Shown piece after piece: positions 13,701-49,571 of a stretch of 64,000 nt of DNA. Source of the DNA: Myxococcales bacterium. Lineage in GTDB: Bacteria; Myxococcota_A; UBA9042. The notes under the pieces are model-generated. The model ran no database searches. It saw only the letters and a program-made list of their open reading frames with translations, and was not told the DNA's origin. The first letter of the stretch is position 1. Each line of letters starts with the position of its first letter. The DNA lies in NCBI GenBank assembly GCA_009692425.1, contig SHZF01000001.1, forward strand, positions 1-64,000. Reading direction: 5' to 3'. Position numbers and translations under genes: made by a program.

Positions 13701-16700
13701 CCGCCACAAGCGCCGCCGCCAGCGGGTCGGTCAGCACGACGGCGCCTGCCTTGGCATTGCCGGTATTGGCCACCGACAGCGTGAAGCGCACGTCGTCGCC
13801 GGGAAACAGGTGGCCGCCCGTCAGGTCCTGCCACGACTTCGTCACCTTCAGTTGGGCCTTGACCGTCACGGTCAGCGCCGGACCCTGCAGCACGAGCGCG
13901 TCGGCAAACTCGGTCGCCTTGACGCTCGCAAGCAGTGCGAGCACGTCGCCGTTGCCTGCGCTGGCATCGACCTCGAACTTCGCCACGAACGTCGCCGTGC
14001 CACCAGGTGCCAGCGTGGCCAGCGTCCACGTCACCGCTCCCGACGACACCGCGCCGGGCGTAATCGCCTGGGGCTTGGTGACCTTGGGCGGCAAGGGCAG
14101 CGAGACTTCCAGGTTCGTCGCCGCCGCCTTGCCGGTGTTCACCAATTTGATGTCGATGCGGATGACGTGGCCCGGGGCGACGTTGCCAACCTGGCCGACC
14201 CAGCCCGTCTCGTCGTCGGCAGCAACTGTCGATGTCTCCAGCCGCGGCGCCGCCACTACGGTCACCGTCACGCTCGGTGGCTTGAGCACGCCGGGCAATT
14301 CGGCAGACACGACCAGTGCGGTGTTGTTCGGTACACTGCCGCCGACCTTTGCGGTGAACGCAAGCGCCAGGTCGCCGTCGGGTGACAGTTGCAGCGCCGG
14401 CACGTTCCACTGCACGCCCGCCGGCGACACGCCGCCGTTGGCCAGTGCGACCACGTCTTCAAGGCCGGCCGGCACCAGCGCATTGGCGACCACCTGCAGC
14501 GCCAGTGCGTCGCCGGTGTTGCGCAGGGTCAGCGTGTACGCCAGCGTGTCGCCGGGCTCGATGGAGCCGCCGTTCAGGTCCTGCACCGTCCAAGAGGACG
14601 TCGAAAGATCGGCCAGCGCGACGACCGTGAGTATGGTCGGGTCCTTGACTGCCGTGGCCAGGTCCGCGTCCGACAGCGCGGGCGCCTGCAGGCCCTTGGC
14701 CGCGATGCTGGCTTGGGCCGCAACGACCGCGCCATTGGCGAGCGGCTTCTTGAGCTTCGCCTGCCACGTCAGCGCGACCTGCTGGCCCGAGTCGATCGCG
14801 CCGGGCTGCCACACGACTGCGCCGTTCTGCACGACCGCGCCGGCGCCAGGCACCACGGACTCCAGCTTGCTGTCGATGGGGACGGTGACGGCGACGTCCT
14901 TCGCCGTGCCCTCGCCGTCGTTCGGCACCACCAGCGTGTAGGTTAGCGCATCGCCCGGCCGCGCATCGCCGCCATTGTCGTCGACCACGCTCAACTTCGC
15001 CTTGCTGAAGTCGATGCTCGAGGCGACGAGGACCAACGTCGGGTCGAGCGCAGCCGCCGTCGTCGGATCGTCGGAGACCACACCAGGCACGCCCGCCGCC
15101 ACCGTGCTGCCCTGGTTCGCAATCGCCGCACCCGGGTCGAGATCGACGGCCACCACCGCTTCGAAGCGCAGCGTCACGGCATCGCCCGCCGCGACGCCCA
15201 GGGTCGCCAGCTTCGGCCAGGTCACCGTCTTGGTCGTGGCGTCGAAGTTGCCGCCATCGAGCGGCACGATGCTCGTCAGGCCCGCCGGTACAATGTCCGT
15301 CACGGCCACGTTTTTCGCGACCGACGTGCCCGTATTGCGCACGGTGAGCGCCCAGCGCAGCGGCGTCTTCGGCTTGATCGTCTGCTGGTTGAGCGTGGCG
15401 CCGCTGGTCGCGTGGAACACGTTCTTCTCGAGCACGAGCAGCGCCTTGGACTCCACGCTGACGCAGGTTGGCTCGCCGCCGGGCTTGGGCGCGCTTCCCG
15501 GGGGGCGCGTGAACGCAGCAGGCAGCCCCTGCGCCTCTACCTGAGCGAGGTTGCAGACCTGGGTGCCCGCGTCGAGCGGCTTTTTGAGCACGCCGGTCAC
15601 GGTGAGCGTCTGCTTGGCTCCCGCAGCCAGCGCACCGACCGACCACGTCGCCGTCTGTGTGCCGATGTCGAACGTGCCGCCGGGCACCACCACCTGCTCG
15701 ACCTCGGGCGGAATCTTGTCGGCGACGACCACGCCGAGCGCGCCGGCGTTCCCGCTGTTTTCGAGCGTCAACGTCCACGTCACCGGGTCGCCGGGCTTGA
15801 GGACGGTCGCGTTGACCGCCTTCGTCGAAAGCGCAAAATCCGCCACGTTCTGGATCGTGAACGTCACGGTGTTGCTCTGTGCCGAACCGGGCGTCTCCGG
15901 GAACGCCGCGTTGCCCACGTTGGCCACGACCTTGCCGGTGGCCGCCGCCTTGTCGACGGTGCCCGTCACCTGGAGCACGACCGCAGCCGCGCCCGGGGCC
16001 AGCGAAGCGACCGTCCACTGGGCGGTCCGCGAGGCTGCGTCAAAGCTGCCGCCCTGCACCGCAACCAGTGCAAACGCGGCGTCGAGCACGTCCTTGACCA
16101 CCACGTTCGTCGCCGGCGCGTTGCCCGTGTTTGTCAGGCTCAACGTGTACAGGACCGCGTCGCCGCCCTGGACGCTGCCGCCGTTGAGGTCCTGCAGCGT
16201 CTTGGCGATCGCAACCACGGGAGCGGACTGCACGCTGAACACCGTCGGATCTGCGCTGCCCGGCTTGGCAGGGTCGTCACTGAGCGCCGGCGCGCCCAGC
16301 CCGCCGCCGTCGAGCTTGGCCTGGTTGCTGACGACGGCACCCTGGGCAATCACGGCGGCGAGGGTGGCCTGGATCGTCAAGGTCAGCGGCGGCCCACCGG
16401 CCGGCAGGCTCGCGATCGGCCAGGTCACGGTCTGCCCCACCGCCCCGCCGCCGCCGCTGACGGCCCCGATGGCAAGCAACCCATCGACGACCGACGTCAA
16501 GGTCGCGTTGAGCAGCGGGCCCTTGCCGGTGTTCTGCAAGGTCAAGGTGTAGGTGATGGTGGCCCCCGGCGCGAAAGTCCCCGACGCGGACGTCACCACG
16601 TTCGTAAACAAGGACACCTTTGGCGTCGCCGCCACCTTCTGCGTCACGCTCACGCTGGCCGGCTGCGGCAGGGCGGGCGCCGTCACCGTCGCCGTGTTGG

Positions 16701-19356: not shown

Positions 19357-19379
19357 GTGTGCGCGAGTCCGCGGGGCGG

Positions 19380-21191
19380 CTAGAACGGATTCCACAGCAT
19401 CACGTCGGTCTGGGGCTTGAGGCCGTCGGCTGTGGTGCCCACGCCGCCGACCACGAGGACATGACCCGTTGGCAATGCCAGCGCCACACCGAGCGCCCGG
19501 TTGCCGCCCAGCAGCGTGTTCTCCACATCGGCCACGACGACGATCGAGGCCTCGGGCGCGGCACCTGGCGCCGCCGCCTTGTATGGCTTCGCGAAGAGGA
19601 ATTCCGCCGAGTTCACATGGGCGCCCGTGCTCGTGCTGCCCCCGGCGACGAGAACCTGCCCAGGAAACGCGCCGGACGACACCGCCACCATCGGCGCCGC
19701 CCGGCCGACCTTGAGCTTGCCGACGCTGCCTTCGGTGAGGTACTGGCCCTTGGAGATGTCGAACACGTCGATGCGGTCGTGCGCCTTCGTTCGGGTCTGG
19801 TCGGTGAAGCCGCCGAGGATGTAGATGTAGCTGTAGAGCGGTTGGTTCGCCGGCGCCTGCACGTAGGCAGCCGACGGCAGGATGCGATCGACGGGCATGG
19901 GCGCGGTGAACGGCTTCCAGTGCTCGAGCGCGCCGGGTGGGCACACCGTAGCGCCCGCATCGGGGCAGCCGCTGTTGCGCGCCGACACCTTGCCGCCGCC
20001 CTTGTCGCTGAACTGCACGACCTCGAAATTGCGCAAGGGCCCGCTGTCATTTTCACCGCCGATCAGCACCGCGTAGCCTCCCCCCGGGCCCGGCAGCCGC
20101 ACCGAAGCATGGTTCCAGCGCGCGTCGTTGAGCAGCCCCTTGGCGACGGCGCCTTGGCTGGGATGCCAAATTTCCCAGGTGTTGCCAGCACATTCGGCCT
20201 CGCTGCCGTCCGTCGGACACTTTACGTCGCCTTCACCGCCGAGCACGAGAAAATAGTCCTGCTTGTCGAACATCGGCACGACCGTGGGCCGCGCTCGGGC
20301 GAACAGCATGTCGGGGTTCTGGCCCGTCGAGCTTTTGATTTCGAACGTCGACGTGATGTATTCGACCGACTTTGTCGGCTTCGGCACCCCATCGACCATC
20401 GCATAGCCGCCCGCGACCACGATTGCGCCGCTGCCCACGGCCACCCCGGCGAACGCGCGGGCCACCTTCAGCTTGGCGCCCGTCAGGTCCGTCAGCGAAC
20501 GCAGGGCGCGCGCATCCGTGTCGTAGACGAGCAGGGTGTCGTGGAGCTTCTCGAAGCTCGCGATGTCGTAGGGGTTCTTGGACGAGGCCTTGACGACTCC
20601 GCCGCCGATGATGAGCGCGCCACCGTGGTTCGGGATCACGACTGCCACTGCGCCGGCCCGTGCATCGGACAGCGCACGCGCGTTGTCGTCGCCGAGCGCG
20701 GGAGCGAAGCTGTTGATCTTTGTAACGTATGGCTTGAATTTTGAGGGCTTTCCGCCCAATTTCACGTCCGCCGGCAGCGACCGGCCGCGTCCGAGCAGCG
20801 GATCGCGCGGCTGGCCATTTTCCTGGGACCACAGCTCGACGCGGATCTGGCGTTGCTGGCCAAACGGCACGACCGGCAGCGTGACCTTGGCACCGGTTCC
20901 CTTCTTGTCCTTGTCGTATCTCTGCAGGGTAAAGACCTTGTTCTCCGGCACGCCTGGACCTTCGGCGGTGAGTGCGACGAAGGCGACGCCGTCGAGATCG
21001 AACGGGTCGTCGGGCGCCGCCGGTGCGTGCACTTCGAGTGCGATGCCGTCTGGTGGCGGTGTCGTGGCCTGCGCGCAAGCGGCGAGGGCCACGCTGCCCA
21101 GCGCGACAGCGGCAAAGTACCGCAACCTCGGTCGCAACCCCGCAGTGCACGGAGCAATTGGGTGGATTTCTGATTGACGCTCTCGGGGCAT
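19380..21191 (-). CDS. Kelch-repeat lipoprotein
   Basis: 603 residues. The signal sequence ends in a lipobox (VALAACAQ), so it is predicted to be a lipoprotein. Several Kelch-type blades are visible by their glycine pairs and following beta strands (GAIVVAGGYAMVDG, GGYAVLIGGEND, YIYILGGFTD, GQVLVAGGSTST, GHVLVVGGVGTT), which implies a beta-propeller filling residues 150-600, preceded by a small beta domain. Kelch propellers bind proteins or sugars; the ligand is unknown. The start at 21191 (GAGG upstream) is preferred to one 10 codons earlier that has no ribosome site. It sits between the PEGA gene (33 bp) and the giant protein (23 bp), most likely in one transcript. Confidence 0.83.
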   Translation of the reverse strand: MPRERQSEIHPIAPCTAGLRPRLRYFAAVALGSVALAACAQATTPPPDGIALEVHAPAAPDDPFDLDGVAFVALTAEGPGVPENKVFTLQRYDKDKKGTGAKVTLPVVPFGQQRQIRVELWSQENGQPRDPLLGRGRSLPADVKLGGKPSKFKPYVTKINSFAPALGDDNARALSDARAGAVAVVIPNHGGALIIGGGVVKASSKNPYDIASFEKLHDTLLVYDTDARALRSLTDLTGAKLKVARAFAGVAVGSGAIVVAGGYAMVDGVPKPTKSVEYITSTFEIKSSTGQNPDMLFARARPTVVPMFDKQDYFLVLGGEGDVKCPTDGSEAECAGNTWEIWHPSQGAVAKGLLNDARWNHASVRLPGPGGGYAVLIGGENDSGPLRNFEVVQFSDKGGGKVSARNSGCPDAGATVCPPGALEHWKPFTAPMPVDRILPSAAYVQAPANQPLYSYIYILGGFTDQTRTKAHDRIDVFDISKGQYLTEGSVGKLKVGRAAPMVAVSSGAFPGQVLVAGGSTSTGAHVNSAEFLFAKPYKAAAPGAAPEASIVVVADVENTLLGGNRALGVALALPTGHVLVVGGVGTTADGLKPQTDVMLWNPF

Positions 21192-23024: not shown

Positions 23025-23882
23025 CTAATCGCGCGCCACGACGGCGACGCCAACCGGCACGCCGAGGGCTGCCTTGAGTGCAACGGCTCGGGTGCCTGCG
23101 TGCAGGTCGAGCATCGTCGACGAGCCGCCGTCGAGGTTGAGGGCGTCGACCAGGCCCGGGCCTCCGTTTCGAGCCGTGTGGGCCAGCGCGGCGGCGAACT
23201 CTGCCAACGACAGCGCGCCGTCCGTGGCGGCGATGACCACCTGGCCGTGCGCGTCGGTTCCCAACGCCGTGCGGCGGGCGCGTGCGGTGTCCCGAAATGC
23301 TGGCGTGCTGCCGGCGACGAGCAGTCGGGGCCCGCACTGCAGAGCGAACTCGAGCGCGGCCGGTGCGACCCATTCCTTGGCGTGTTGAAGCCCCGCGCGA
23401 CCCGCCCCAACAGTGAACACCCCCTGGTCAACCCGGCGCAGCGGCCCCAACTGGCGGCCACGGCTCACGCGCAGGCCCAGCGGCTGGAACTGGGGGTCGA
23501 AGTAGCCCGCGTTGACGGCCAGTACGCCGCCGACCGCTTCGCGAAAAGTCCGCGCATCCGCCAGGGGTTGCTTGGTCGCTGTGCTGTCGACGAGGACGAG
23601 TTCCCAGCGGTTGAGCACGATGCGCACGAGGTGGATGGCGAGATCGCCACCTGCCCCGGTGTGCGTTTCGGCCCTCGCGTACTCCAAGCCCGGCTGCAGC
23701 GATTGCCAGCGCAGCGGCTCCGGTGCCGGCGCACGACCGCACGCCGCGAGGACACCGGACAGCGCGAGCAACCGGACGCCTGCTCTCCACCTGGACTGCT
23801 CGCGGGCAAGGCGCGCCGACCTCGTGCCCACGGCGAAGAACGGGGAGCGCCCGTGTGGGCTAGAGTTGCGAGGTGATCGCAT
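23025..23882 (-). CDS. Phosphodiester glycosidase-like (NAGPA/DUF2233) lipoprotein
   Basis: 285 residues. A hydrophobic stretch ending in a lipobox (LSGVLAACGRA) predicts lipidation. The body matches the NAGPA family (PF09992): AVNAGYFDPQFQPLG (the family's N-G-x-F block), then GTDAHGQVVIAATDG and the glycine-rich ALNLDGGSSTMLD signature. Members hydrolyse sugar phosphodiesters (uncovering enzyme) or are tied to exopolysaccharide processing in bacteria. The ATG at 23882 overlaps the stop of the upstream fusion gene by 23 bp; a GTG at 23831 is an alternative that would shorten the signal region by 17 residues. Neither has a strong ribosome site. Role in surface glycan trimming is inferred from family and neighbours. 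Confidence 0.83.
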   Translation of the reverse strand: MRSPRNSSPHGRSPFFAVGTRSARLAREQSRWRAGVRLLALSGVLAACGRAPAPEPLRWQSLQPGLEYARAETHTGAGGDLAIHLVRIVLNRWELVLVDSTATKQPLADARTFREAVGGVLAVNAGYFDPQFQPLGLRVSRGRQLGPLRRVDQGVFTVGAGRAGLQHAKEWVAPAALEFALQCGPRLLVAGSTPAFRDTARARRTALGTDAHGQVVIAATDGALSLAEFAAALAHTARNGGPGLVDALNLDGGSSTMLDLHAGTRAVALKAALGVPVGVAVVARD

Positions 23883-26373
23883 TGCGCAGCGGCTCGAGTT
23901 GCTCCTCAGGCTTGAAACCTGTCGCGTAGTAGCGCACGACGCCCTGGCGATCGATGATGAACGTCGCTGGCATCGAGTAGACGTTGAACTGCCCCATCAG
24001 TTCGGACTCCGGGTCGCCGATGATCGGGAACGGGACCTCGAAGCCCTTGGCGAACTCGACCGCGCGCGCCGTCTCCCGGTCCACGCCTATCGAAAACACC
24101 TGGAAGCCTTTGCCTTTGTGCTGCTTGTACAGCGCGACGAGTTCGGGCATCTCCTTCTTGCAGGGTCCGCACCAGCTCGCGAAGAAGTTCAGGAGCGTGA
24201 CCTTGCCCTTGAATTGCGCCGTATCGACCTCGGTTCCGTCGTCTGCCTTGACCTTGAAGGCGGGCACGGGCTTGCCGACAAGGTCCGCGTCCGTGACCTG
24301 AACGTCGCCCGCGCCGGCGCCCTGCTGCACGACGTCCTGATCCGCGCAGCAGCGGAAGCCCGTCGTCATGTTGCGGTTGCCGATGCCGAAACTGGCGGAG
24401 CGTTGGTTGCACGCCGCACGCTCGCCCGAAGAAACATGGCCGCCCATCTGTCCTGCCGTCTCCTTCGTTGTCCCGGTCCACTCGCCGATGTTGCCGCCCA
24501 GGTCGAACAACCCGGAAGCGGTGCGGCAGCCCTCCTTGATCCCGGTCTTCAACGGTTTTCCCTTGTACTTGTCTTCTTGATCCACGCACTTGCCTGCCTC
24601 GTAGAAGGAACCGTACGGATACATGTTCCCTTCGACGTTGTCGTCGGCGAACTGCTGGTTCGTGTTCTCGTCGATCGCGGGCGTGGCCGTACACGCGCTG
24701 ACCCACTCCTCTTCCGTGCACAGGCGCTTGCCCGCTTTTTTGCACGCCGCTTCGGACTCCATCCACGACGCCATGGCGGGCTCGACGTTTGGCAGGCTCA
24801 GCGCGCGCCCGTCCTTGCTCAGCGACGCCTCGTACGGGTCGATCCAGAACGAACCCCTTGCGGTCTTCGCCTCGAGCATGTGCGAGCCGTCGGGCTTGGG
24901 TGCCAGCGCCTGGGCTGCCGCATTCGTCCCATACCCGCCTTCAGGGCAGTGATCCGTGCTCGCGAGAGCCTTCTGGATGTAGTAGTCGAGGATTGACGTC
25001 GACGCCGAACCCGTGACGAGGCGGTTGTTGATGTACGTGCGCGGAGCCCCGTAAGCGCCGGACTTGATGGTCAGCTCGATGTCGCTCGTGAGGCGCTGCA
25101 ACACCTTGGGATCCTTGACGCACTCGTCATACTTTGCCAGGTCGAGTCCGAGCTCCTGTGCGTACTGGCGGTTGGCGACCGGGTCGAGCTTTGGTTGGTT
25201 GGCGTAGAGCTTGTCGTGCATGTCCCAGAACTTACCCTGGTGGTTGGCGCACACGGCCGTGATGTGGGCGTTGCACGCGTTGGGGTGCTTGTCGTAGCCC
25301 TGCATGTAGCGATTGCAGGTCGGGTTCATGGGGAAGTGCTTCATCACGAAGCGGACCTTGTCCTTGTACTTCTCCTTCAGCGGTTCCATCGTGAGCGCGA
25401 GGTAGCGGCAGTAGGGGCACTCGAAGTCGGAGTACTTCACGACCGTGACCTTGGCGTCCTGCGGGCCGAAGAACGAGTCCTGTTCATCGAGCGGCGTGTT
25501 GAAAAGTGTCCAACCATCGTCGGTTTTCTGGCCACCATGCTCGCCGGGCTGCAGGCAGCCTTGCTTGGCGCCTGCCGGGCCCGCGGCCGCCACTGGAGCC
25601 GTCTGCGCCCCGGCGCCGCCCGTGATCGATCCCGACCCTTGCGCGGCGGCCACGGTCGTCTGTGCCGCCGGCGCTCCCCCGCCGAACTGGGCGTCGATCT
25701 TGGCCTTGTACTCCGTTTCCATGCGCGCCTTGACGCTGTCGTACGCCAACCACGCGCCGCCGCCGGCGATGACGACCACGCCCAGCGCGAGCGGAACCGG
25801 CTCGGCGAACTTGACGAGCGCAGCGAAGGCCGTCTCGATCGCCTTGCCGACCGTCTTGGGCCCCGCCGCGATCGCAAGCCCGGTCGCAGTCAGGTTCACG
25901 GCGTAGAGCGAGATGCAGTACAGGCAATACGCCTCGACCACCGACGTCGAGTAGTATGCGAGAAACATAGAGAAAAGCACCGTCAGGATGCCGATCCCCG
26001 CCGCCGCACTTAGGGCCGTGGCGCCGATCGCGCGCTGGCCCGCGTCCGTGGCCTTGAGAGCGCCCAGGGCGACGTACCCGAGGTAGCCCTGCACGGCATA
26101 GGTCGGCACGGCAAGCAGGCTGACGGGTAGGCCGAACACCTCGGACCACCCGGAAACGTTGACCTTGTCGCAGTTGATCGCGCCGCCCAGGTTGCAACTC
26201 GACACGTAGGTCGGGTCGAGCGTGATGTGGAGCTTGTGGCGCACGAGCCAGATGGAGACGCCGAGGCCGGCGGCGAGCACGGCGAACAGGGCGTAGATCA
26301 GGCCAGGGCCGCTGGGCAGGCCGTTCGACGCTGCGGCAGGCGCGGGTGCGGGCGGGGCTGTCTCGGTCGACAT
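23860..26373 (-). CDS. Four-module redox fusion: VKOR - DsbA-like - FGE-like - TlpA-like thioredoxin
   Basis: 837 residues. (1) A membrane VKOR domain at about 25-170: helices near 25-45, 82-105, 115-142 and 152-170, the loop pair C60/C68 and the active CXXC at C150-L-Y-C153. (2) A fifth helix at about 195-212 and an Ala/Gly linker lead to a DsbA-like thioredoxin fold, about 285-470, with C319-P-Y-C322 and the cis-Pro block GAPRTYINN. (3) An FGE/SUMF1-like domain, about 500-676 (FWIDPYEAS, RLCTEEEWVSAC, DLGGNIGEWTG, GFRCCAD). (4) A TlpA/AhpC-type thioredoxin, about 697-837, with WC735-G-P-C738 and MPATFIIDRQG. VKOR enzymes pass electrons from DsbA-like partners to quinones, so modules 1 and 2 should form a self-contained disulfide generator; module 4 looks like a reductase or isomerase. 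GGAG lies 7 bases before the ATG. It heads the run of exported Cys-rich proteins, which are plausible substrates. Confidence 0.93.
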   Translation of the reverse strand: MSTETAPPAPAPAAASNGLPSGPGLIYALFAVLAAGLGVSIWLVRHKLHITLDPTYVSSCNLGGAINCDKVNVSGWSEVFGLPVSLLAVPTYAVQGYLGYVALGALKATDAGQRAIGATALSAAAGIGILTVLFSMFLAYYSTSVVEAYCLYCISLYAVNLTATGLAIAAGPKTVGKAIETAFAALVKFAEPVPLALGVVVIAGGGAWLAYDSVKARMETEYKAKIDAQFGGGAPAAQTTVAAAQGSGSITGGAGAQTAPVAAAGPAGAKQGCLQPGEHGGQKTDDGWTLFNTPLDEQDSFFGPQDAKVTVVKYSDFECPYCRYLALTMEPLKEKYKDKVRFVMKHFPMNPTCNRYMQGYDKHPNACNAHITAVCANHQGKFWDMHDKLYANQPKLDPVANRQYAQELGLDLAKYDECVKDPKVLQRLTSDIELTIKSGAYGAPRTYINNRLVTGSASTSILDYYIQKALASTDHCPEGGYGTNAAAQALAPKPDGSHMLEAKTARGSFWIDPYEASLSKDGRALSLPNVEPAMASWMESEAACKKAGKRLCTEEEWVSACTATPAIDENTNQQFADDNVEGNMYPYGSFYEAGKCVDQEDKYKGKPLKTGIKEGCRTASGLFDLGGNIGEWTGTTKETAGQMGGHVSSGERAACNQRSASFGIGNRNMTTGFRCCADQDVVQQGAGAGDVQVTDADLVGKPVPAFKVKADDGTEVDTAQFKGKVTLLNFFASWCGPCKKEMPELVALYKQHKGKGFQVFSIGVDRETARAVEFAKGFEVPFPIIGDPESELMGQFNVYSMPATFIIDRQGVVRYYATGFKPEEQLEPLRNAITSQL

Positions 26374-41104: not shown

Positions 41105-42118
41105 CTACTCCACGCAAAACCCGACATCGCCGGCCCGCGGCTGGCCGTCGGGCGAGAGGAGCGGCGAGCATTTTCCCACGCAGGATTGCGGACCTCCGAG
41201 CGTCGAACATTTCTTGCGGCACACCGCCGCGCCACCGGCGTCGAGGCAGAGGTGGCCCGGCAGGCAGTCCGCCGCCGAGGTGCACGTGGCACCCGCCACC
41301 GCCTTGCCCGTACCGATGCACGCCTTGATCCAACCCGCCGGCGCGCACGTCTGTCCACTCGCACAACCCTGATCCGTCAAGACATCGCAGGCGTCGCCCG
41401 ACTTGCACGCGCCGAGGTTCTTGCCCGCCGCACCTGCGCCGGAGAACACGATCTTTTCGCAGGGTACGCCCGGCTTGCAGGCCCATTGCGAAGTCGCCGT
41501 CGTCGCGCAGATCGTGCGGCACACGCCAGCGATGCAGAGGTGCCCCCACGCGCAGTCGTTCCAGCCAGCGCAGGCGGCGCCGTGGGGCTTTTTACCCGGA
41601 TTGAGGCACACGTTGCCGCCGGGATCCGGAAAGCACTGCAGGCCGTCGCCACATCCCGCGGATCCGACCGGCTCGCATCCGGCCGTCGGGCTCGCTTCGG
41701 CCGGCAGACCGCCGTCGCTCGCGGTGGCGTCGCCCGGCAGCAGCAAGTCTCCCCCAACGGCGGCATCCGCGAGCACCTGGGAGGCCGCGTCGGACCCTGG
41801 AGCCGCACCTGTGTCGAAGCCGTCCGAGGCCGGCGCGCCCGCGTCCAGCGTCACGCCGGCGGCCGGCGGCCCGCGGAACACCGGTCCGCTGTCCTTGGTC
41901 GCATCCAGCGCCGACGTGGCCGCGGAGTCTTCTTCCGGCGGCAGTGCGCACGCCGGCAGGTGCGCCACCGCCAGCAGGGCCGCGGCCACCAGCGCCGCAC
42001 GCCCCGTCCCGGCCACCCGCGAACTGGTTGCGATCCCGCGGGCCCGGCGAGCCGGCAGGGGCTGGCAAACCGCAACCGACCGCAAGCGGTGCGAGAATTC
42101 GTGCAAGGCGCGGGTCAC
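41105..42118 (-). CDS. Cysteine-rich lipoprotein with acidic linker
   Basis: 337 residues from a GTG at 42118 that overlaps the stop of the upstream gene (GTGA). The export signal is unusually deep: the hydrophobic stretch (ALVAAALLAVAHLPAC) ends near residue 58, so a downstream GTG at 42017 is an alternative start. A low-complexity Ala/Asp/Gly linker covers about 60-125. The rest is a Cys-rich module array (CGDGLQCFPDPGGNVC, CAWGHLCIAGVC, CASGQTCAPAGWIKAC, CLPGHLCLDAGGAAVC), a pattern common in myxobacterial secreted proteins. No function recognised. Confidence 0.75.
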   Translation of the reverse strand: MTRALHEFSHRLRSVAVCQPLPARRARGIATSSRVAGTGRAALVAAALLAVAHLPACALPPEEDSAATSALDATKDSGPVFRGPPAAGVTLDAGAPASDGFDTGAAPGSDAASQVLADAAVGGDLLLPGDATASDGGLPAEASPTAGCEPVGSAGCGDGLQCFPDPGGNVCLNPGKKPHGAACAGWNDCAWGHLCIAGVCRTICATTATSQWACKPGVPCEKIVFSGAGAAGKNLGACKSGDACDVLTDQGCASGQTCAPAGWIKACIGTGKAVAGATCTSAADCLPGHLCLDAGGAAVCRKKCSTLGGPQSCVGKCSPLLSPDGQPRAGDVGFCVE

Positions 42119-44292
42119 TTTGGCGGGGCGTTGATGAACGATAGCGTGTACGACTCGCACGTAGGCTTGAAGCCCGGTTTGCGGAACACGAACACAAAGA
42201 ATTTCGCGCTGTTGTCGACGCAGATGTTCATGCCCGGCAGGCCTGGCGCTTTTGTACACTTGCACTCGCCGCCAACCTCGGGGTTGGGCGACTTGACGAC
42301 GGCGCCGGCAGGCTGGCCGGTCTTGGCCTGTGGACCCGACGGCGCGGCGCCAGAAAAACTGACGTTCCACTCGGCCGACGTCTGCTCCTTGCAAAGTTGG
42401 TCGGCGCCGGCGCACGAGCCGCGGAACAAGTCGAATGCGAACTGCTCGCCTGGGTTGTCGCTGAACTTGACGCGCACGTCGAACTGGTCGCACGCGCCGC
42501 CGTCGTCCGGACTGTCCGTCGCGAGGAACTGGTACCAGTCGCCCGCCTCGCCCGGCATCACGTTGCCCGACTTGAACACCGAGTTGCCGCCGTCGCCTAA
42601 CTGCCCCAGCGCGATCCCCGCCTCGCACTTCGCGCCGACCACGCCGTAGTTGTTGTCGGCGCTGCACTCGCACCCGTTCGTCACGTTGGCATCGACATCG
42701 AAAAGACCTTTGGCGCACGTGCCGATGCCGCACTTGCCGACCAGGCAACCGCCCTTGCCGCCTGCGACGTCGGGGCACGACTTGCCCGCCGGGTCCTCGT
42801 CGGTCTTGCCGTTGCAGTCGTCGTCAAGCCCATTGCACAACTCGGTGACGTTGGGCTTGATCTTCGGGTCGTTGTCGTCGCAGTCACCGCCCTTGGCCGT
42901 CGTGTGGATCTTCGTCGGCCCGCACAGGCACTTGAGCGATTCGTTGGGCCCGAAGCCGTCCTTGTCGACGTCGAGGTAGTGCGGCTTGCACCCGTCGGCG
43001 CCCTCTTCGTCGGTCTTGCCGTTGCAGTTGTCGTCCTTGGCGTTGCACGACTCCTTCGTGGTGGGATTGACCTTGCCGTTGCCGTCGTCGCAGTCGCCGC
43101 CCTGTTCGATCCAGTCCGCAGTCTTCTTCGACGGGCACAGGCACGCCGAATCGTCGATGTCGCCGAACTTATCGCCGTCCTTGTCCTTGTAGAACACCTT
43201 GCAGCCCTTTGAGCCCGATTCGTCGGTGTCGCCGTTGCAGTTGTCGTCGAGGTTGTTGCAGATTTCGTCGGCGCCGGGCTTCACGCTCGCCACCAGGTCG
43301 TTGCAGTCGCCGCCGATCTTCGCATAGCCGACGCCTGGGTTGGCGCACAGGCACTCGCCCTCGCCGATGCCGGTGCCGTCGCCGTCGTTGTCGGGCCAAT
43401 ACGCAACGCAGCCGATGGCCGCGCGCGGCTTGCCCGTCTTGTCGTCCTTCTCAGATTCGTCGGTCTTGCCGTCGCAGTCATTGTCCTCGTTGTCGCACTG
43501 CTCGGTTTCGGGGAACGACTTGTTGCACAGCGTCAGCCCGTTCTCGCCGCACGTCCGCGTGCCGGTACACGTGCCGAACACGTTCGATTTCGTGCAAGGT
43601 GTCGAGAACTTGAGCGCGCTCCATTCCGGCGTGCAGCCGCATTCGGCACCGTCGACCGGCACGCACTGCTTGGCGACGATCGGCTCTTCGGCCCCCGGCA
43701 CCGGCGCCGAGACTTCGACGCACTGGAAACCCGCGCGGCAGTCCGTGTCCTCGGTGCAGCCCGTGCCACAGAACGAGCCATTGGCCTCCAGCAATTCCGG
43801 GTTGTCGTGGGTGACGACGCGCGGGACGCACAGGCTCGAGTCCTTCGCCGCGCCAGTCTGTTTGCAGTCGTCGTGCAGCTTGCACGGGCGGCACAAGTTC
43901 GTGAACAACGAGACGCACACGTAGGTCAGGTCGCCGGTGCCCGCCGCCTGCACGCACTTCCAGTCCTTGGGGCACTTCGACTGGCACACTTTCGTGCACA
44001 CCTTGCCGAGTTCGGACTCCACGCAATAGCCCGAGGTGCACGCGTCGTTGTTCTCGCATGGGCAACCCCAGCCGCCCTCGATTTCGCAGGGCACGGCGGG
44101 CTTGTCTGGGACGTCGGGGGCGACCGCGCTGTTGTCTTCGGCGATGGCGGAGTCGCCCGCGCCGAAACTGGTCTCCGGCAGCAGGCTTTTCGCCGACGTG
44201 GTGGGGGCGGGTTCCGAGCAGGCCGACGCAACAAGCACGAGCAGCGCCACGCCAATGCCCAGGCTGCGCCCGCCTCTGCACACCTCGCTCAT
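42115..44292 (-). CDS. MopE-type metal-binding-repeat lipoprotein
   Basis: 725 residues. A lipobox (LVASACSE) lies near residue 25. An N-terminal Cys-rich part resembles disulfide-knotted secreted modules (GCPCENNDACTSGYC, CRPCKLHDDC). At about residues 265-500, four repeats of the form C-(D/N)-x-x-D-(N/D)-(D/N)-C-(D/N)-G-x-TDE are spaced by GGDC(N/D)D units, as in the PF11617 putative metal-binding motif first noted in MopE. The C-terminal part (about 530-725) is a beta domain with GDWYQFLATDSPDDGG. It is followed, with GTGA overlap, by a smaller Cys-rich lipoprotein. Likely a surface protein stabilised by calcium and disulfides; ligand unknown. Confidence 0.83.
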   Translation of the reverse strand: MSEVCRGGRSLGIGVALLVLVASACSEPAPTTSAKSLLPETSFGAGDSAIAEDNSAVAPDVPDKPAVPCEIEGGWGCPCENNDACTSGYCVESELGKVCTKVCQSKCPKDWKCVQAAGTGDLTYVCVSLFTNLCRPCKLHDDCKQTGAAKDSSLCVPRVVTHDNPELLEANGSFCGTGCTEDTDCRAGFQCVEVSAPVPGAEEPIVAKQCVPVDGAECGCTPEWSALKFSTPCTKSNVFGTCTGTRTCGENGLTLCNKSFPETEQCDNEDNDCDGKTDESEKDDKTGKPRAAIGCVAYWPDNDGDGTGIGEGECLCANPGVGYAKIGGDCNDLVASVKPGADEICNNLDDNCNGDTDESGSKGCKVFYKDKDGDKFGDIDDSACLCPSKKTADWIEQGGDCDDGNGKVNPTTKESCNAKDDNCNGKTDEEGADGCKPHYLDVDKDGFGPNESLKCLCGPTKIHTTAKGGDCDDNDPKIKPNVTELCNGLDDDCNGKTDEDPAGKSCPDVAGGKGGCLVGKCGIGTCAKGLFDVDANVTNGCECSADNNYGVVGAKCEAGIALGQLGDGGNSVFKSGNVMPGEAGDWYQFLATDSPDDGGACDQFDVRVKFSDNPGEQFAFDLFRGSCAGADQLCKEQTSAEWNVSFSGAAPSGPQAKTGQPAGAVVKSPNPEVGGECKCTKAPGLPGMNICVDNSAKFFVFVFRKPGFKPTCESYTLSFINAPPK

Positions 44293-44355: not shown

Positions 44356-47300
44356 CTACTGGAACGCAGCCGTGAGCACGGTGTAGCCGCCCGCACGCTG
44401 CAACGCCACGATGTGCACGGACATTTTTGCGCCCGCCGGCATACCCGGCAGCAGAGCGGCGATGTCGGTCGCGGGCAGGTCGAGTTTGAGTTCGTCGAGG
44501 CCTGGCAGCCCCTTTTTCAGCGTCTTGTCGAGTTCGGCCAGCACGAGCTTCTCCAGGCTCGGCTTCATGTTCTCGAACTCCTTGGTGATCGACACCATTT
44601 CCAGGAGAGCCTTGGGACCGCCGGTCGGGGTGATGGTCAGTGCTGCGCCGAGCTTGCCGACGCCGAGGCCGAGTTTCGCGGTCACCTCTGCCTGTGCCAG
44701 CAGCCCGATCGTGAGGCCGTCGCCCAGCGGAAGCGTCGCTTCGCTGTAGGCGTCGCCGATCTGGACCTTGACGACGTCGCCGGTCGGCGCGCTGCACGAC
44801 TCGAGCACCGGTGGCAGGAACAGGTCGAGCGCGAACACCGCGTCGTTGAGCGGCGCTGCGGTCACGTCCTTGGGGTCGACCTTGAGCCCGAGGTCCTTCG
44901 CTTTGAGGCCCTTGGCCTTCATGCCTCCGGCCAGCCAGGCGGCGTGCAGCGCCTGGTTCAGCACGTCGTCGTGCATCGCGAGTTGGATGCGCTGCTTGGG
45001 GTCCACCGCAAGTTCGGCGGGTGGCTGGCCCGGGCACTCGCCGCGGCCCATCGCGCCGAGTGTGACGTGGGGCGTCGCCTTGGGAGCCACGAACGAGGCA
45101 TCGAGTTGCAGAGCCATGCCGGCCGGGCTGAAGTGCAGGGCATCGACGACCGTGACCAGTTGCACGGCGACCTTCGGCAGCCCCGGCAGCACGGGCGGAA
45201 CGTCGATCGTCTGCTGGATCGCGAGTTGCTTCGTGAGCCCCGCCAGCAGAGCCGGCAGCGTCTTTTCGACCGCCAGGATGACCTCAGACTGCAGCTTGCC
45301 CTTGTAGCCGTCGACGATTGCATTGACGACGGAATCGAACAGCCCCGCCAGGCCATCGAGATTGACCTGCAGGCCGTCGACCGTGGCCGTCGTGTCGCCG
45401 ACGCCCGTCTGCGCCTTGCCGCCCTCGATGTCGATGCCGACCGTCGTCTTGACCGTCAACTTTGCAATCTTGACGGTACCGGTGACGTGCACCTTGACCT
45501 TGATCGGCCCGAGCTTCTGTGTGGCGTGGACATCGACGTCGGATTGGATGTCCGGTATCGAGATCGTCGTCACCAGCCCGGCTGCCGTCGGGACCAACGT
45601 CACCTTGGGCGGCCCGAACTTCACGTTCGACACCTTGATGTCGGCGCCGTTCGCCTGCTGTGCGCCGGGCAACAGTGTGGCGGGGTCCATGCCGGCGAGC
45701 ACGAGTTCCATCATCGTGGCGAGGTCGTCAGGCTTGGCCGGGTCGTGCACGCCGTCGTCGAAGAAGTCCTTGCCGAGCAGCACCTGGATGCCGTGCGGGA
45801 CCATCGCAGCGTGCGGCGTCTCCAGCTTCGTCGCGTACCACTGGGTCGACCAGTAGAAGCCGCGGGTCGCACGCGCCATTTCACCGCCGAGATCCTCGGC
45901 GACCGCCTCGAACATCGTCAGACCGTGCGCGGCCGGTTGCTGGCTCGACCAGGCCCCTTCGAGGTCCGAGTAGGCGGCCTTGCCATTGACCTTGAGGCTC
46001 TTGAGACCCGCGACCGCGTCGCCGACGGTACCTTGCACCAAGACTGACGGCTTGCCGGTACGCGTGGAGCCCCATCCCGGCACGTCGAGCGTCAGCAAGG
46101 GCGGCGCGCCATCGACGACCAGCGTCACGCTCGCCGCCACTGCCGGAGCTTGGGAGACGTGGGCCGCAACGAGGTATTTGCCGTCGGCGTTGAACTGGAA
46201 CTGCTGCGCCGCGACGGCCACCCAGCCCACCTTGGGTTCCTTGACGCCGAACTCGACGACATCGTCGGGGCGCACGTTGCCGAATGCGTCGTGTATCGTC
46301 GCGAGAAACTGGACCTTCTCCTCGCGCTTGTAGACCGACTTCGCCGGCAGCGGCTGCACGGCGAGGGTCGCGGCGGGGGCCGGCACGACGTGCAGGGTCG
46401 CCGGGTGCAGCACATAGAGGTCCCACGCATCGGCCTCCGGCACGCACTGCACCTTCCACAAGCCGGCCTGCGTCGTGCTGACGAAGATACCGGTCACCTG
46501 CAGCGGCTTGGCGTGGTCGAGCGTGAACGGAAAGTCGGGCACCGGATTGCCGAACGCGTCCGTCGCCTGGCACTGCAAGGTCGCTGCGTGGCCGGCCTGC
46601 ACTTGCGGCGGATCGAACAGTGTCGTCAGGTGCCTGGGCGGGCCGACGACGACGGTCAACGACGGCGGCGATGCATCGGTGGCGATGTCGAGGTGATGCT
46701 GCAGGGCCTGCGGATCGATGTGGTCCGCCTTGGCCCACGCCGCGTGCAGGCCCGCGGGCTGGAACACGCGGCACGTCGGCTTCCATGTGCCGACCTTTTC
46801 GAGGTGAAGGGTGAAATGGCCGCCATTGCCCGCATCGAGCCCGCCCGCGCCCGCCACCCCGACGAGTTCGAGGCCCAGCGCGACCGGATTGCCCCACGGG
46901 TCCAGCGCACCGCACGCCACTTCGACGGCGGTCCCTGCGGCGACGTGGTGCGGATCATCGATTGCGGCCGCGGGCCCAATCAGCACCGTATCGACGACGG
47001 CGGCCGGCGCGGGCGCGACTTCGATCAGGTTGCCGATTTCGTCCGCCAGGCCCTTGGCGCCGCCGCCACCTCCAGGCGGCACCACGCAGCGCACGCGATG
47101 CGTGCCGGCCTGTGCGAAGGCGATTCGCGTCCCCGCAATCTGGAGCACCGCGCCCATCGACGCACCGGCATCGACCGTGAGCGTCGCACCCGCCGGCAGG
47201 GGCACTTCAGAACCCAACGTGTCGGCTGGCGCTCCCACAGGCGGCTTGCGAAACGTCCGGCACGCGACGGCGGTCCAGACTCCGGCCCACGCAGAGCCCG

Positions 47301-47445
47301 TGCCGACGTCCGTGCGCAACACCAGTTGGGCCGGATCGACGGCGGCGGCCGTCTTGTCTGCGTCCGCAGGCGGCTCCGAACAGGAGCCGACGAACAGCAC
47401 GGCCGCGCACCACCAACCTGAGCTGACACTGCGGCGGCGCGCCAC
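44356..47445 (-). CDS. Lipoprotein with Ig-like modules and TULIP (BPI/LBP)-like C-terminal domain
   Basis: 1,029 residues from a GTG at 47445, chosen because GGAGG stands 7 bases before it and the protein then begins with a compact signal and lipobox (WWCAAVLFVGSCSE). An ATG at 47484 is possible but has no ribosome site. Residues 150-450 hold at least three Ig-like modules, each with a D-x-(W/F)-GN-x-(V/R) strand turn (ALDPWGNPV, ATDAFGNPV, IHDAFGNVR). From about 590 to the end, long amphipathic strands and helices alternate (VHVTGTVKIAKLTVKTTVGI, LFDSVVNAIVDGYKGKLQS, LSITKEF-like helices), a pattern like BPI/LBP/CETP lipid-binding TULIP domains. This resemblance is by eye. It could carry a lipid across the periplasm. 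Confidence 0.7.
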   Translation of the reverse strand: MARRRSVSSGWWCAAVLFVGSCSEPPADADKTAAAVDPAQLVLRTDVGTGSAWAGVWTAVACRTFRKPPVGAPADTLGSEVPLPAGATLTVDAGASMGAVLQIAGTRIAFAQAGTHRVRCVVPPGGGGGAKGLADEIGNLIEVAPAPAAVVDTVLIGPAAAIDDPHHVAAGTAVEVACGALDPWGNPVALGLELVGVAGAGGLDAGNGGHFTLHLEKVGTWKPTCRVFQPAGLHAAWAKADHIDPQALQHHLDIATDASPPSLTVVVGPPRHLTTLFDPPQVQAGHAATLQCQATDAFGNPVPDFPFTLDHAKPLQVTGIFVSTTQAGLWKVQCVPEADAWDLYVLHPATLHVVPAPAATLAVQPLPAKSVYKREEKVQFLATIHDAFGNVRPDDVVEFGVKEPKVGWVAVAAQQFQFNADGKYLVAAHVSQAPAVAASVTLVVDGAPPLLTLDVPGWGSTRTGKPSVLVQGTVGDAVAGLKSLKVNGKAAYSDLEGAWSSQQPAAHGLTMFEAVAEDLGGEMARATRGFYWSTQWYATKLETPHAAMVPHGIQVLLGKDFFDDGVHDPAKPDDLATMMELVLAGMDPATLLPGAQQANGADIKVSNVKFGPPKVTLVPTAAGLVTTISIPDIQSDVDVHATQKLGPIKVKVHVTGTVKIAKLTVKTTVGIDIEGGKAQTGVGDTTATVDGLQVNLDGLAGLFDSVVNAIVDGYKGKLQSEVILAVEKTLPALLAGLTKQLAIQQTIDVPPVLPGLPKVAVQLVTVVDALHFSPAGMALQLDASFVAPKATPHVTLGAMGRGECPGQPPAELAVDPKQRIQLAMHDDVLNQALHAAWLAGGMKAKGLKAKDLGLKVDPKDVTAAPLNDAVFALDLFLPPVLESCSAPTGDVVKVQIGDAYSEATLPLGDGLTIGLLAQAEVTAKLGLGVGKLGAALTITPTGGPKALLEMVSITKEFENMKPSLEKLVLAELDKTLKKGLPGLDELKLDLPATDIAALLPGMPAGAKMSVHIVALQRAGGYTVLTAAFQ

Positions 47446-47498
47446 CACGACGCCTCCGAGGGTGCAGGCGGCAATGTTCGACATGGAGGCGCCGGGTT

Positions 47499-48179
47499 TC
47501 AGGTCGCGGGGCCTGCGACAGGACTCGCTGTGCCCATTGGCTTGCTGCGTGGGTCCGGCCCCTCGCGCGATCGGCCAGGGACGTCGCCTGCGGGGCCCAC
47601 CGTGCGCTCGTCGAACGTGCACGCGCTGGCAGCGAGCGCCACGAGCGCCCCAGACTCCTCGTGGTGGCCCACCCGCTCCTCGTTCTCACCCACGCGCAGC
47701 GCGACGAGATCGACCGCCGAGCGCACGTGGTCCGGTGTCTGCCGGTCGCCGCGCCCGCCGTCGTACGAGTACAGTTCCCAGTGCTGCGTGCGCGCGAGCG
47801 GCCGGTTGGCAGTCGGGCCCCGGAACAGTTCGATCTCAAGACGGCCGAAGTGCACGGCGTCGCGCAAGTGGACGCGCAGGTGGCGGTCGGGGCAACGGGT
47901 CACCTTCTCGAACACCCACTGGTCGTCCAGCGCTCCACCGGGCAGCGTCGGGGCCAACAGTGCTTCGCCGGCCGGGGCGACAGGTGGCGCCAGTGGGACG
48001 GGAGTCGATCCGTTCGTGTTCGCCGACTCGGCTCCCTCGCCCGCGACGCATCCGGCTGCGAGGGCCGCGCTGCCCAGTCCTACCTGCCCGGCCCGCCGCA
48101 ACCACTCGCGACGGCTGCTTTGTGCGGGACGCGCCATCCCCTCGAAGGTCCCGTCGGGGTTTGGGTCATGGCGGGTCAT
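47499..48179 (-). CDS. Tat-signal lipoprotein of unknown function
   Basis: 226 residues. The twin-arginine motif SRREWLRRAG is followed by a hydrophobic stretch and the lipobox LAAGC, so the protein is likely exported folded and lipidated. The start at 48179 has GAGG 7 bases upstream. The C-terminal domain (about 85-210) is a beta-rich segment (WVFEKVTRC, LEIELFRGP, HWELYSYDGG, VDLVALRVG) with no family recognised. The gene ends 53 bp before the TULIP-like lipoprotein and may share its transcript. Export in a folded state often implies a cofactor, but no binding motif is seen. Confidence 0.7.
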   Translation of the reverse strand: MTRHDPNPDGTFEGMARPAQSSRREWLRRAGQVGLGSAALAAGCVAGEGAESANTNGSTPVPLAPPVAPAGEALLAPTLPGGALDDQWVFEKVTRCPDRHLRVHLRDAVHFGRLEIELFRGPTANRPLARTQHWELYSYDGGRGDRQTPDHVRSAVDLVALRVGENEERVGHHEESGALVALAASACTFDERTVGPAGDVPGRSREGPDPRSKPMGTASPVAGPAT

Positions 48180-48317: not shown

Positions 48318-49571
48318 TTACTTTGGCGGCGCCTTGTACGCCGTCGGCGCCTGCGTCAGCGCGCGCGCCTTGGCAAACGGATGCAAGGCCTCGTCGAGTG
48401 CGACCTCCAGTTCGGCGGCGCGGGCGTTGAGATCGGACAGGTCCTGGGCCAGTCCGATCGGCTTGAGCGCCAGCGTGGCACCGGTCGCATCGGCGGCAAA
48501 CGGATGGTAGGTCAGGCGGCCGTAGCGGTCGGCCCTGATCGCGCCCAGCACGAAGAACTCGGTGCCGGTCTGCCTTGCCAGATTCTGCATCGGCGCACGG
48601 CACACATCGGTGTGGAAAGCGCCCTGACGCGCGCACGGTTCAAGCGTCGCGACGCTGAGTTCGTCGGGCTCGGCGGCCTGGGCCGCGACGACCTTCAGGG
48701 CGACCGGTTTGCACGCGACGCGCACGTCCTTGGTGTGCGCCCGCACGACAGCACCCCACGGCTGCCAGGCGCCGCCGCGGATCTGCACGTAGTGGGTGCC
48801 GGGCCGGAAGTCTTCGCCGATCGCCGGCAGCGGACCCACGCGCACGCCGTCGATGAAGGCTTCGGCCCCCACTGCCAGGCACTCCACGGAGATGTTGATC
48901 TTTGCGTGGTTGCCGACCCTTTCGTGAATGCCGTCGAAAAGCGCCAGCAGAGCCGGCGACTGCTTGCGGCGGTCGATCACGAGCGTCGGCTGCAGTACGA
49001 TGCCCTGCTCGAACAAGCGCGTCGCTTCGGCACCGCCCGCCCCCGAGCGATAGGCCGTGATGCCGGCCCGCGCGAACCCGTCGGCCAGTTTCGTGAAGTC
49101 GACCAACTCCATGTACGCCTTTTCGTACAAGACGATGGCTTCGCGAAACTTGTCGTAGGCTTCTGCGTGCTTGTCCTCGGCCGCGAGGTCCGTGGCTTCC
49201 TGCCGCACGACATCGGCCTCGTCGATGCGCCGCGATGCGAGCGAACCCTTGACCAAGATGGCCTTCTTGCCGTCGCCAGGTCCCTTGGCCGGACGGTCCC
49301 TGTCGGTCACGACCTGCACCTTGGTCGAGAACTGCACGGCGTCGGCCATCGCCTTCGCCACCCGCTTCTCGAACAAGGGGCGCACGTCGCCGAGCGCCAC
49401 GGCAGGCACGATCAGGACCCGCGGCGCACCCTTGCCGGTCGGATCGCCGCGGGCATTCGCTGCCGTCGTCGCGGCATCGGCTTGGGCCGACGCCACCCGG
49501 GGCACGACCAACAGGAGGGCAAGGGTGGCGGTCAGGAAGAGGGGACGCGGGCGACGGCTGACTTCGTGCAT
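48318..49571 (-). CDS. PEGA-domain secreted protein, paralogue of the 21225-22817 product
   Basis: 417 residues with a signal peptide (LFLTATLALLLVVPRVASAQA). The middle section shares ELVDFTKLAD, a LQPTLVIDRRK block and a following PEGA-like beta domain (AEAFIDGVRVG, FRPGTHYVQIRGG) with the other PEGA protein, in the same order. It lacks that protein's Pro/Glu linker and C-terminal helix, so it should be periplasmic and soluble. N-terminal residues 40-110 (RVLIVPAVALGDVRPLFEKRV) resemble the nucleotide-independent lipoprotein folds of such families, not enzyme motifs. The start at 49571 is chosen for the signal peptide. Confidence 0.78.
   Translation of the reverse strand: MHEVSRRPRPLFLTATLALLLVVPRVASAQADAATTAANARGDPTGKGAPRVLIVPAVALGDVRPLFEKRVAKAMADAVQFSTKVQVVTDRDRPAKGPGDGKKAILVKGSLASRRIDEADVVRQEATDLAAEDKHAEAYDKFREAIVLYEKAYMELVDFTKLADGFARAGITAYRSGAGGAEATRLFEQGIVLQPTLVIDRRKQSPALLALFDGIHERVGNHAKINISVECLAVGAEAFIDGVRVGPLPAIGEDFRPGTHYVQIRGGAWQPWGAVVRAHTKDVRVACKPVALKVVAAQAAEPDELSVATLEPCARQGAFHTDVCRAPMQNLARQTGTEFFVLGAIRADRYGRLTYHPFAADATGATLALKPIGLAQDLSDLNARAAELEVALDEALHPFAKARALTQAPTAYKAPPK

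Follow-up and report, generated by a model that had tools for sequence, protein, structure and literature searches.

The window analysed here comprises 64,000 nucleotides from a Myxococcales bacterium (positions 1 to 64,000 of contig SHZF01000001.1, assembly GCA_009692425.1). An initial annotation, made from the sequence, had placed a bacterial lipoprotein with a candidate TULIP-like lipid tunnel, reminiscent of BPI, LBP and CETP, at positions 44356–45650. The locus raises the question of whether a myxococcal lipoprotein carries the fold of these eukaryotic lipid carriers and, if so, what it would carry and from where. Bacterial TULIP proteins in print, according to two papers, include YceB, P47/OrfX2, DUF4403, DUF2140 and DUF2993 (PMC6791001, PMC5507252). 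The annotation had called such proteins rare, which disagrees with an earlier description of TULIP domains as widespread in bacteria (PMC6791001).

Gene organisation and domain architecture

The annotated region corresponds to the C-terminal 431 residues plus the stop codon of one long minus-strand frame, which has orthologous frames in relatives and is summarised with its neighbours in Table 1. It holds the TULIP domain as proposed, except that the domain starts at 45801, roughly 150 bases upstream of the end given. The two phrases quoted as repeated text are present (GLAGLF at residue 711 and LGPI at residue 658 of 1042) and occur once each. Internal repeats were rejected on the result of a blastp comparison of the domain with itself, which gave the identity match only at E values up to 100.

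Table 1. Coordinates of the lipoprotein gene, its predicted parts and its neighbours in the window.
Feature	Position	Strand	Basis and remarks
Stalked TULIP lipoprotein gene, 1042 residues	44356..47484	-	Open frame; ATG at 47484, stop at 44356-44358; orthologous frames in relatives
Predicted signal peptide, residues 1-34, putative start codon	47383..47484	-	Hydrophobic run before lipobox, aligned in orthologues
Lipobox cysteine C35 (VGS/C SEPP), predicted lipid anchor site	47380..47382	-	Sequence alignment
Ig-like beta-sandwich stalk, about five domains	45850..47343	-	Full-length model; boundaries are a reading of the model
Last stalk domain, Glucodextran_B-like, abutting TULIP domain	45850..46101	-	PF09136 E 7.3e-5, 23 bits (cut-off 27, not reached)
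Double TULIP domain, 481 residues	44359-45801	-	C-terminal part of the 1042-residue protein
N-terminal TULIP domain	45127..45801	-	Family profile matches to LBP/BPI, PF01273, fold; boundary to C domain is a reading
C-terminal TULIP domain	44359..45126	-	Structure match spanning BPI residues 2-454
Invariant C817 (domain residue 281), probable disulfide partner	45034..45036	-	32/32 sequences; bond inferred
Invariant C897 (domain residue 361), probable disulfide partner	44794..44796	-	32/32 sequences; bond inferred
MopE-like partner gene, 725-residue predicted lipoprotein, 61 cysteines, MopE-type motifs	42115..44292	-	PF11617 E 1.9e-30; downstream of TULIP gene
Cysteine-rich protein further downstream, putative start	41105..41980	-	Relative in 12/19 loci
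Upstream gene with signal peptide	48318..49571	-	Relative in 11/19 loci; no Pfam match

The lipoprotein assignment was borne out by the N-terminus, where a signal peptide with a lipobox cysteine, as expected of a bacterial lipoprotein, is found in the sequence and lipidation is predicted. The cysteine of the VGSC lipobox is aligned with a cysteine in 18 of the 19 full-length sequences, the N-terminus of the 19th having been cut off by the choice of reference, while the signal peptide region itself is disordered and of low confidence in the full-length model. None of the 18 readable sequences has an aspartate at position +2 after this cysteine; in E. coli, lipoproteins that lack it are sorted to the outer membrane.

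The full-length model, computed with 19 sequences (pLDDT 75.3, pTM 0.52), shows about five β-sandwich domains followed by the TULIP domain. The stalk was superposed on the adhesin FdeC with a VIA-align Z of 12.7 over 266 residues, at an rmsd of 8.2, and its match to Pfam Big_1 (E 0.03) lies under the cut-off. The Glucodextran_B family matched in its last domain was also found in seven of eight further TULIP-family proteins scanned. Within the 506 C-terminal residues, the only cysteines are the two listed in Table 1, both in the C half, and 17 positions of this region are identical across all 32 aligned sequences.

Predicted structure of the TULIP region

The 506-residue C-terminal part (44359–45876) was modelled with AlphaFold2 together with 31 relatives, with a mean pLDDT of 78.1 and a pTM of 0.73; since 130 of the 506 residues fall under a pLDDT of 70, loop details are unreliable. 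The five best matches of this model in the PDB, as found by Foldseek, were BPI, LBP, BPI, CETP and LBP, with E values from 1.1e-17 to 3.3e-16. Pairwise superposition with VIA-align gave a Z of 19.4 for human BPI (414 residues, 4.5 Å, 14% identity), followed by CETP (17.9) and LBP (17.5). The next family was dust-mite allergen 7 (Der p 7; Z 11.2), which matched over one domain only, and JHBP scored 10.3.

Model residues 27–506 align with BPI residues 2–454, which encompass both TULIP domains in the order of BPI, and the same match was recovered with the full-length model (Z 17.2). The long helix and long curved strands of a tubular TULIP fold are present in the predicted model, where long strands and helices alternate, as had been described from the sequence. 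Fold prediction, which the initial annotation had proposed as its check, thus returned TULIP; a plain adhesin or Ig-like fold is absent from the region, the Ig-like domains being located in the upstream stalk. As a rough check for a lined tunnel, the strands were examined for alternating hydrophobic residues; the alternation was significant (p<0.05) in only 3 of 14. On this model, the region is predicted to be a full BPI-type double-TULIP pseudo-dimer.

Sequence relationship to BPI and LBP

The likeness to BPI and LBP extends to profile searches. Taken alone, the window protein gives a weak match to PF01273 (LBP_BPI_CETP), with an E value of 0.018 and 15.2 bits, short of the 28.8-bit cut-off, which a paralogue in the same genome exceeds (29.8 bits). 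PF01273 matches 31 of the 32 aligned family members at E<=1, with a best value of 2.5e-9. Two other TULIP families, JHBP and Grp7_allergen, are matched by eight and six members, respectively, a bacterial Ig family by four (best 0.0065), LmeA by one (0.0081) and the other listed families by one member each.

Searched against PDB sequences, the family profile retrieved LBP (2.3e-10) and BPI (1.3e-6), with the next match at 0.65, and the aligned region in both is the N-terminal TULIP domain. A second profile, A5, was built from 15 domains of eight other Myxococcota loci, none of them in the first alignment, and retrieved BPI (2.4e-5 and 2.9e-5) and LBP (1.1e-4), with nothing else at E<=10; its members were originally found with the first profile, so that its content is independent but its discovery is not. 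A comparison of the two alignments gave a match over 469 columns, with a probability of 100% and an E value of 8.4e-44.

The C-terminal domain alone gave no significant sequence match in these searches. PF02886 matched none of the 32 C domains and one of the 15 A5 members (E 0.11). Residues 251–288 of LBP are co-linear with invariant D/N/G positions but score −0.6 bits, and a claim of C-domain homology was dropped. The sequence signal thus resides in the N-terminal TULIP domain, and the C-terminal one is assigned from the predicted structure. Because the PF01273 cut-off is missed and PF02886 does not match, the protein is filed as a BPI-type double TULIP within the TULIP superfamily and is not counted among the curated BPI family members.

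Comparison with known TULIP proteins

With BPI, LBP and CETP (PF01273, PF02886), the myxococcal protein shares the double-TULIP pseudo-dimer over its whole length and the profile match of the N domain. Those are free secreted proteins, whereas this one is a lipoprotein on an Ig stalk, with an invariant cysteine pair in the C domain and an acidic N domain. BPI has a disulfide in its N domain, a mark of the BPI family that is missing here, as the N domain contains no cysteines. By its model, then, the protein is a BPI fold with a new mount.

Likeness to bacterial TULIPs other than DUF4403 was assessed through PDB folds or Pfam scans only. DUF4403 (PF14356, Levine 2019) is likewise a bacterial double TULIP (PMC6791001). 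Membership of this family was rejected, as hhalign between the two families gave a probability of 0.1%. A local DUF4403 profile retrieved no BPI or LBP from the PDB, and PF14356 matched one of eight family proteins at E 0.048 (below the cut-off) and one of 15 at 0.013, with no match to the window protein. A DUF4403 double TULIP is encoded as a separate gene in the same genome (L124:1342-2772, minus strand), so that two double-TULIP families coexist; DUF4403 was present in 19 of the 52 genomes of the relatives search. YceB (DUF1439) of E. coli is also a TULIP-bearing lipoprotein of the outer membrane (PMC5507252), but it has a single domain and no stalk, and its superposition on the model is weak (Z 7.3 over 159 residues). 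P47/OrfX from clostridial clusters are bacterial TULIP folds that appear in the fold-search lists; P47 differs in its lower score (Z 9.3 at 7.8 Å), and P47/OrfX are absent from the PDB sequence matches of the family profiles. A literature search of open-licence papers found no description of a BPI-like, stalk-mounted family of myxococcal lipoproteins.

In 2019, the strongest reported bacterial–eukaryotic TULIP link was that of DUF4403 with BPI, at 63% HHsearch probability, and a common origin was left open (PMC6791001). A plain profile search that reaches LBP at 2.3e-10 is a firmer bridge for the origins of BPI/CETP lipid carriers. We tentatively suggest, as a possibility somewhat short of even odds, that no known bacterial proteins are nearer kin to eukaryotic BPI/LBP/CETP than this Myxococcota family, that the BPI-type double tube was either present in bacteria or passed between eukaryotes and myxococcal lineages, and that in LPS-free diderms it would handle surface lipids other than LPS. 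The family also provides a bacterial set in which double-TULIP lipid carriage can be tested in envelopes seemingly without LPS.

Distribution and paralogues

Four members of the TULIP family are encoded in the source genome, and the domain was matched in all 52 genomes of the relatives search, with 24–47% identity among the matches listed. Across 283 Myxococcota genomes of at least 80% completeness (46 of the same class and 237 others), the family profile matched 155, weak matches to 1e-3 included: every one of the 46 class genomes and 109 of the other 237. PF01273 matched 35 of the 283, 34 of them within the class, and exceeded its cut-off in 15. At E<=0.001 it was found in none of 14 control genomes and in one of the 237 genomes outside the class (G230), where the hit is itself a TULIP family protein.

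A tblastn search of a plasmid collection gave no match to the family. A scan of a genome collection, which used a single conserved peptide as the query and would miss distant relatives, e.g. in other phyla, returned 25 loci, titled Myxococcales/Myxococcota, 'Deltaproteobacteria', Proteobacteria (2), 'bacterium' (1), Oligoflexales (2, from one genome) and Anaeromyxobacter (1).

Two TULIP matches lying near each other were found in 6 of 10 genomes, and TULIP genes stand in tandem at seven of eight loci examined, several of which were chosen for their neighbouring matches and not at random. A paralogue in the source genome (L110) and three proteins from other families (L111–L113) have 62–64 cysteines, and Dicty_CTDC repeats were found in all three of these four that were scanned. 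In L110 (7272-10694), L111 and L112, about 63 cysteines are arranged in such Dictyostelium-type repeats ahead of the TULIP domain. Loci L115 and L171–L176, from other Myxococcota families, encode divergent tandem TULIP lipoproteins, a long cysteine-richer one and a shorter one, often in overlapping frames.

Genomic neighbourhood

Gene order was compared at 19 loci from the same family of genomes, several of which end too soon to show all neighbours. In 18 of them, the TULIP gene has the MopE-like gene next downstream, the exception being a locus cut by a contig end, and GrpE or GroEL is encoded nearby in seven of the 19. Beyond this family of genomes, a MopE-like neighbour was present in one of four class relatives examined (in L116, not in L117–L119). 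Directly upstream of the TULIP gene, a frame for a twin-arginine-type lipoprotein (47499-48179, minus strand) lacks a relative at any of the 19 loci and is either lineage-specific or spurious.

LPS pathway and candidate cargo

Neither LpxC nor LptD was found in the source genome, which is 96% complete. LpxC was detected in one of the 46 same-class genomes, compared with 145 of the 237 other genomes of the phylum; judged by gene content, the class seems to be without the ordinary LPS pathway and looks like LPS-free diderms. Sorangium is not known to have LPS. LpxC is also lacking in further families of the phylum, e.g. in all 17 TULIP-positive genomes of family f18. The idea that LPS loss is causally tied to TULIP genes was dropped, since no association was found outside the class: of the 109 genomes there with a TULIP match, 67 have LpxC, as do 78 of the 128 without one.

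The N domain of BPI is strongly cationic. A tip of this kind is not present in the window protein, the N domain of which is mildly acidic, with a net charge of −6 (family median −5.5). As LpxC is so scarce within the class, self-made LPS is an unlikely cargo, and the lineage without LpxC together with the acidic N domain favours a phospholipid, a sphingolipid or another non-LPS lipid as the candidate.

Proposed role and alternative readings

Domain order, fold prediction, N-domain kinship with BPI/LBP and conserved MopE-like company emerge from the computation. We propose, at a probability of about one half, that the protein is an outer-membrane lipoprotein whose Ig-like stalk ends in a lipid-binding pseudo-dimer of BPI type, and that it acts as a carrier of non-LPS lipids. 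The lipid anchor would fix it in the outer membrane, the stalk would serve as a tether, allowing the carrier to reach either across that membrane or away from it, and the two tubes would hold non-LPS lipids and exchange them with nearby membranes, possibly in concert with the MopE-like partner. Such a tethered shuttle would take up or deliver envelope lipids and would resemble CETP/PLTP in its working more than BPI, which grips LPS. Counting against this proposal are the small share of strands with hydrophobic alternation, the absence of a sequence match for the C-terminal domain, the sub-cut-off PF01273 score of the window protein and the missing association of TULIP presence with LpxC loss in the rest of the phylum.

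The adhesin-like stalk, with its match to FdeC (Z 12.7), and the cysteine-rich, extracellular-type partner would also suit a surface adhesin, in which the TULIP tip had lost lipid carriage and become a stiff head for attachment to another cell or to matrix. We consider this rather unlikely, given that lipid handling is the role of those TULIP domains whose function is known (PMC5507252) and that the whole domain is kept, in the BPI arrangement, in all 46 class genomes. The protein might instead face inwards and form a lipid bridge through the periplasm: held by its anchor in the outer membrane's inner leaflet, it would extend its stalk and tube towards the inner membrane. Its two TULIP domains in line agree with such a bridge, as does the lack of Asp at +2 in the 18 readable sequences under the E. 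coli sorting rule for the outer membrane; however, no inner-membrane partner (MCE, permease) was recognised among the conserved neighbours, and stalk plus tube, as estimated from domain sizes, probably exceed the width of the periplasm, which makes this reading unlikely.

A functional counterpart of BPI, displayed on an LPS-free cell and gripping the LPS of other Gram-negatives, be they prey or rivals, would accord with LBP and BPI, not CETP, being the nearest sequence kin in the PDB, and the cell itself would be safe, as LpxC and LptD were not found in its genome. We regard it as very unlikely: the acidic charge of the N domain, in the window protein and across the family, is at odds with the cationic one of BPI, and LpxC is present in 67 of the 109 TULIP-carrying genomes outside the class. 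The tethered carrier of non-LPS lipids is our preferred reading.

Further features of the window

Two other frames of the window were recorded. An 837-residue protein (23860-26373, minus strand) combines VKOR, DsbA-like, FGE-sulfatase and AhpC/Redoxin domains in one chain, and is perhaps an oxidative folding machine for cysteine-rich exported proteins. A frame of 5078 residues (4708-19944, minus strand) contains, in the 4900 residues scanned, 12 DUF11 stretches along with other Ig-like domains, in the manner of a giant surface-type protein.
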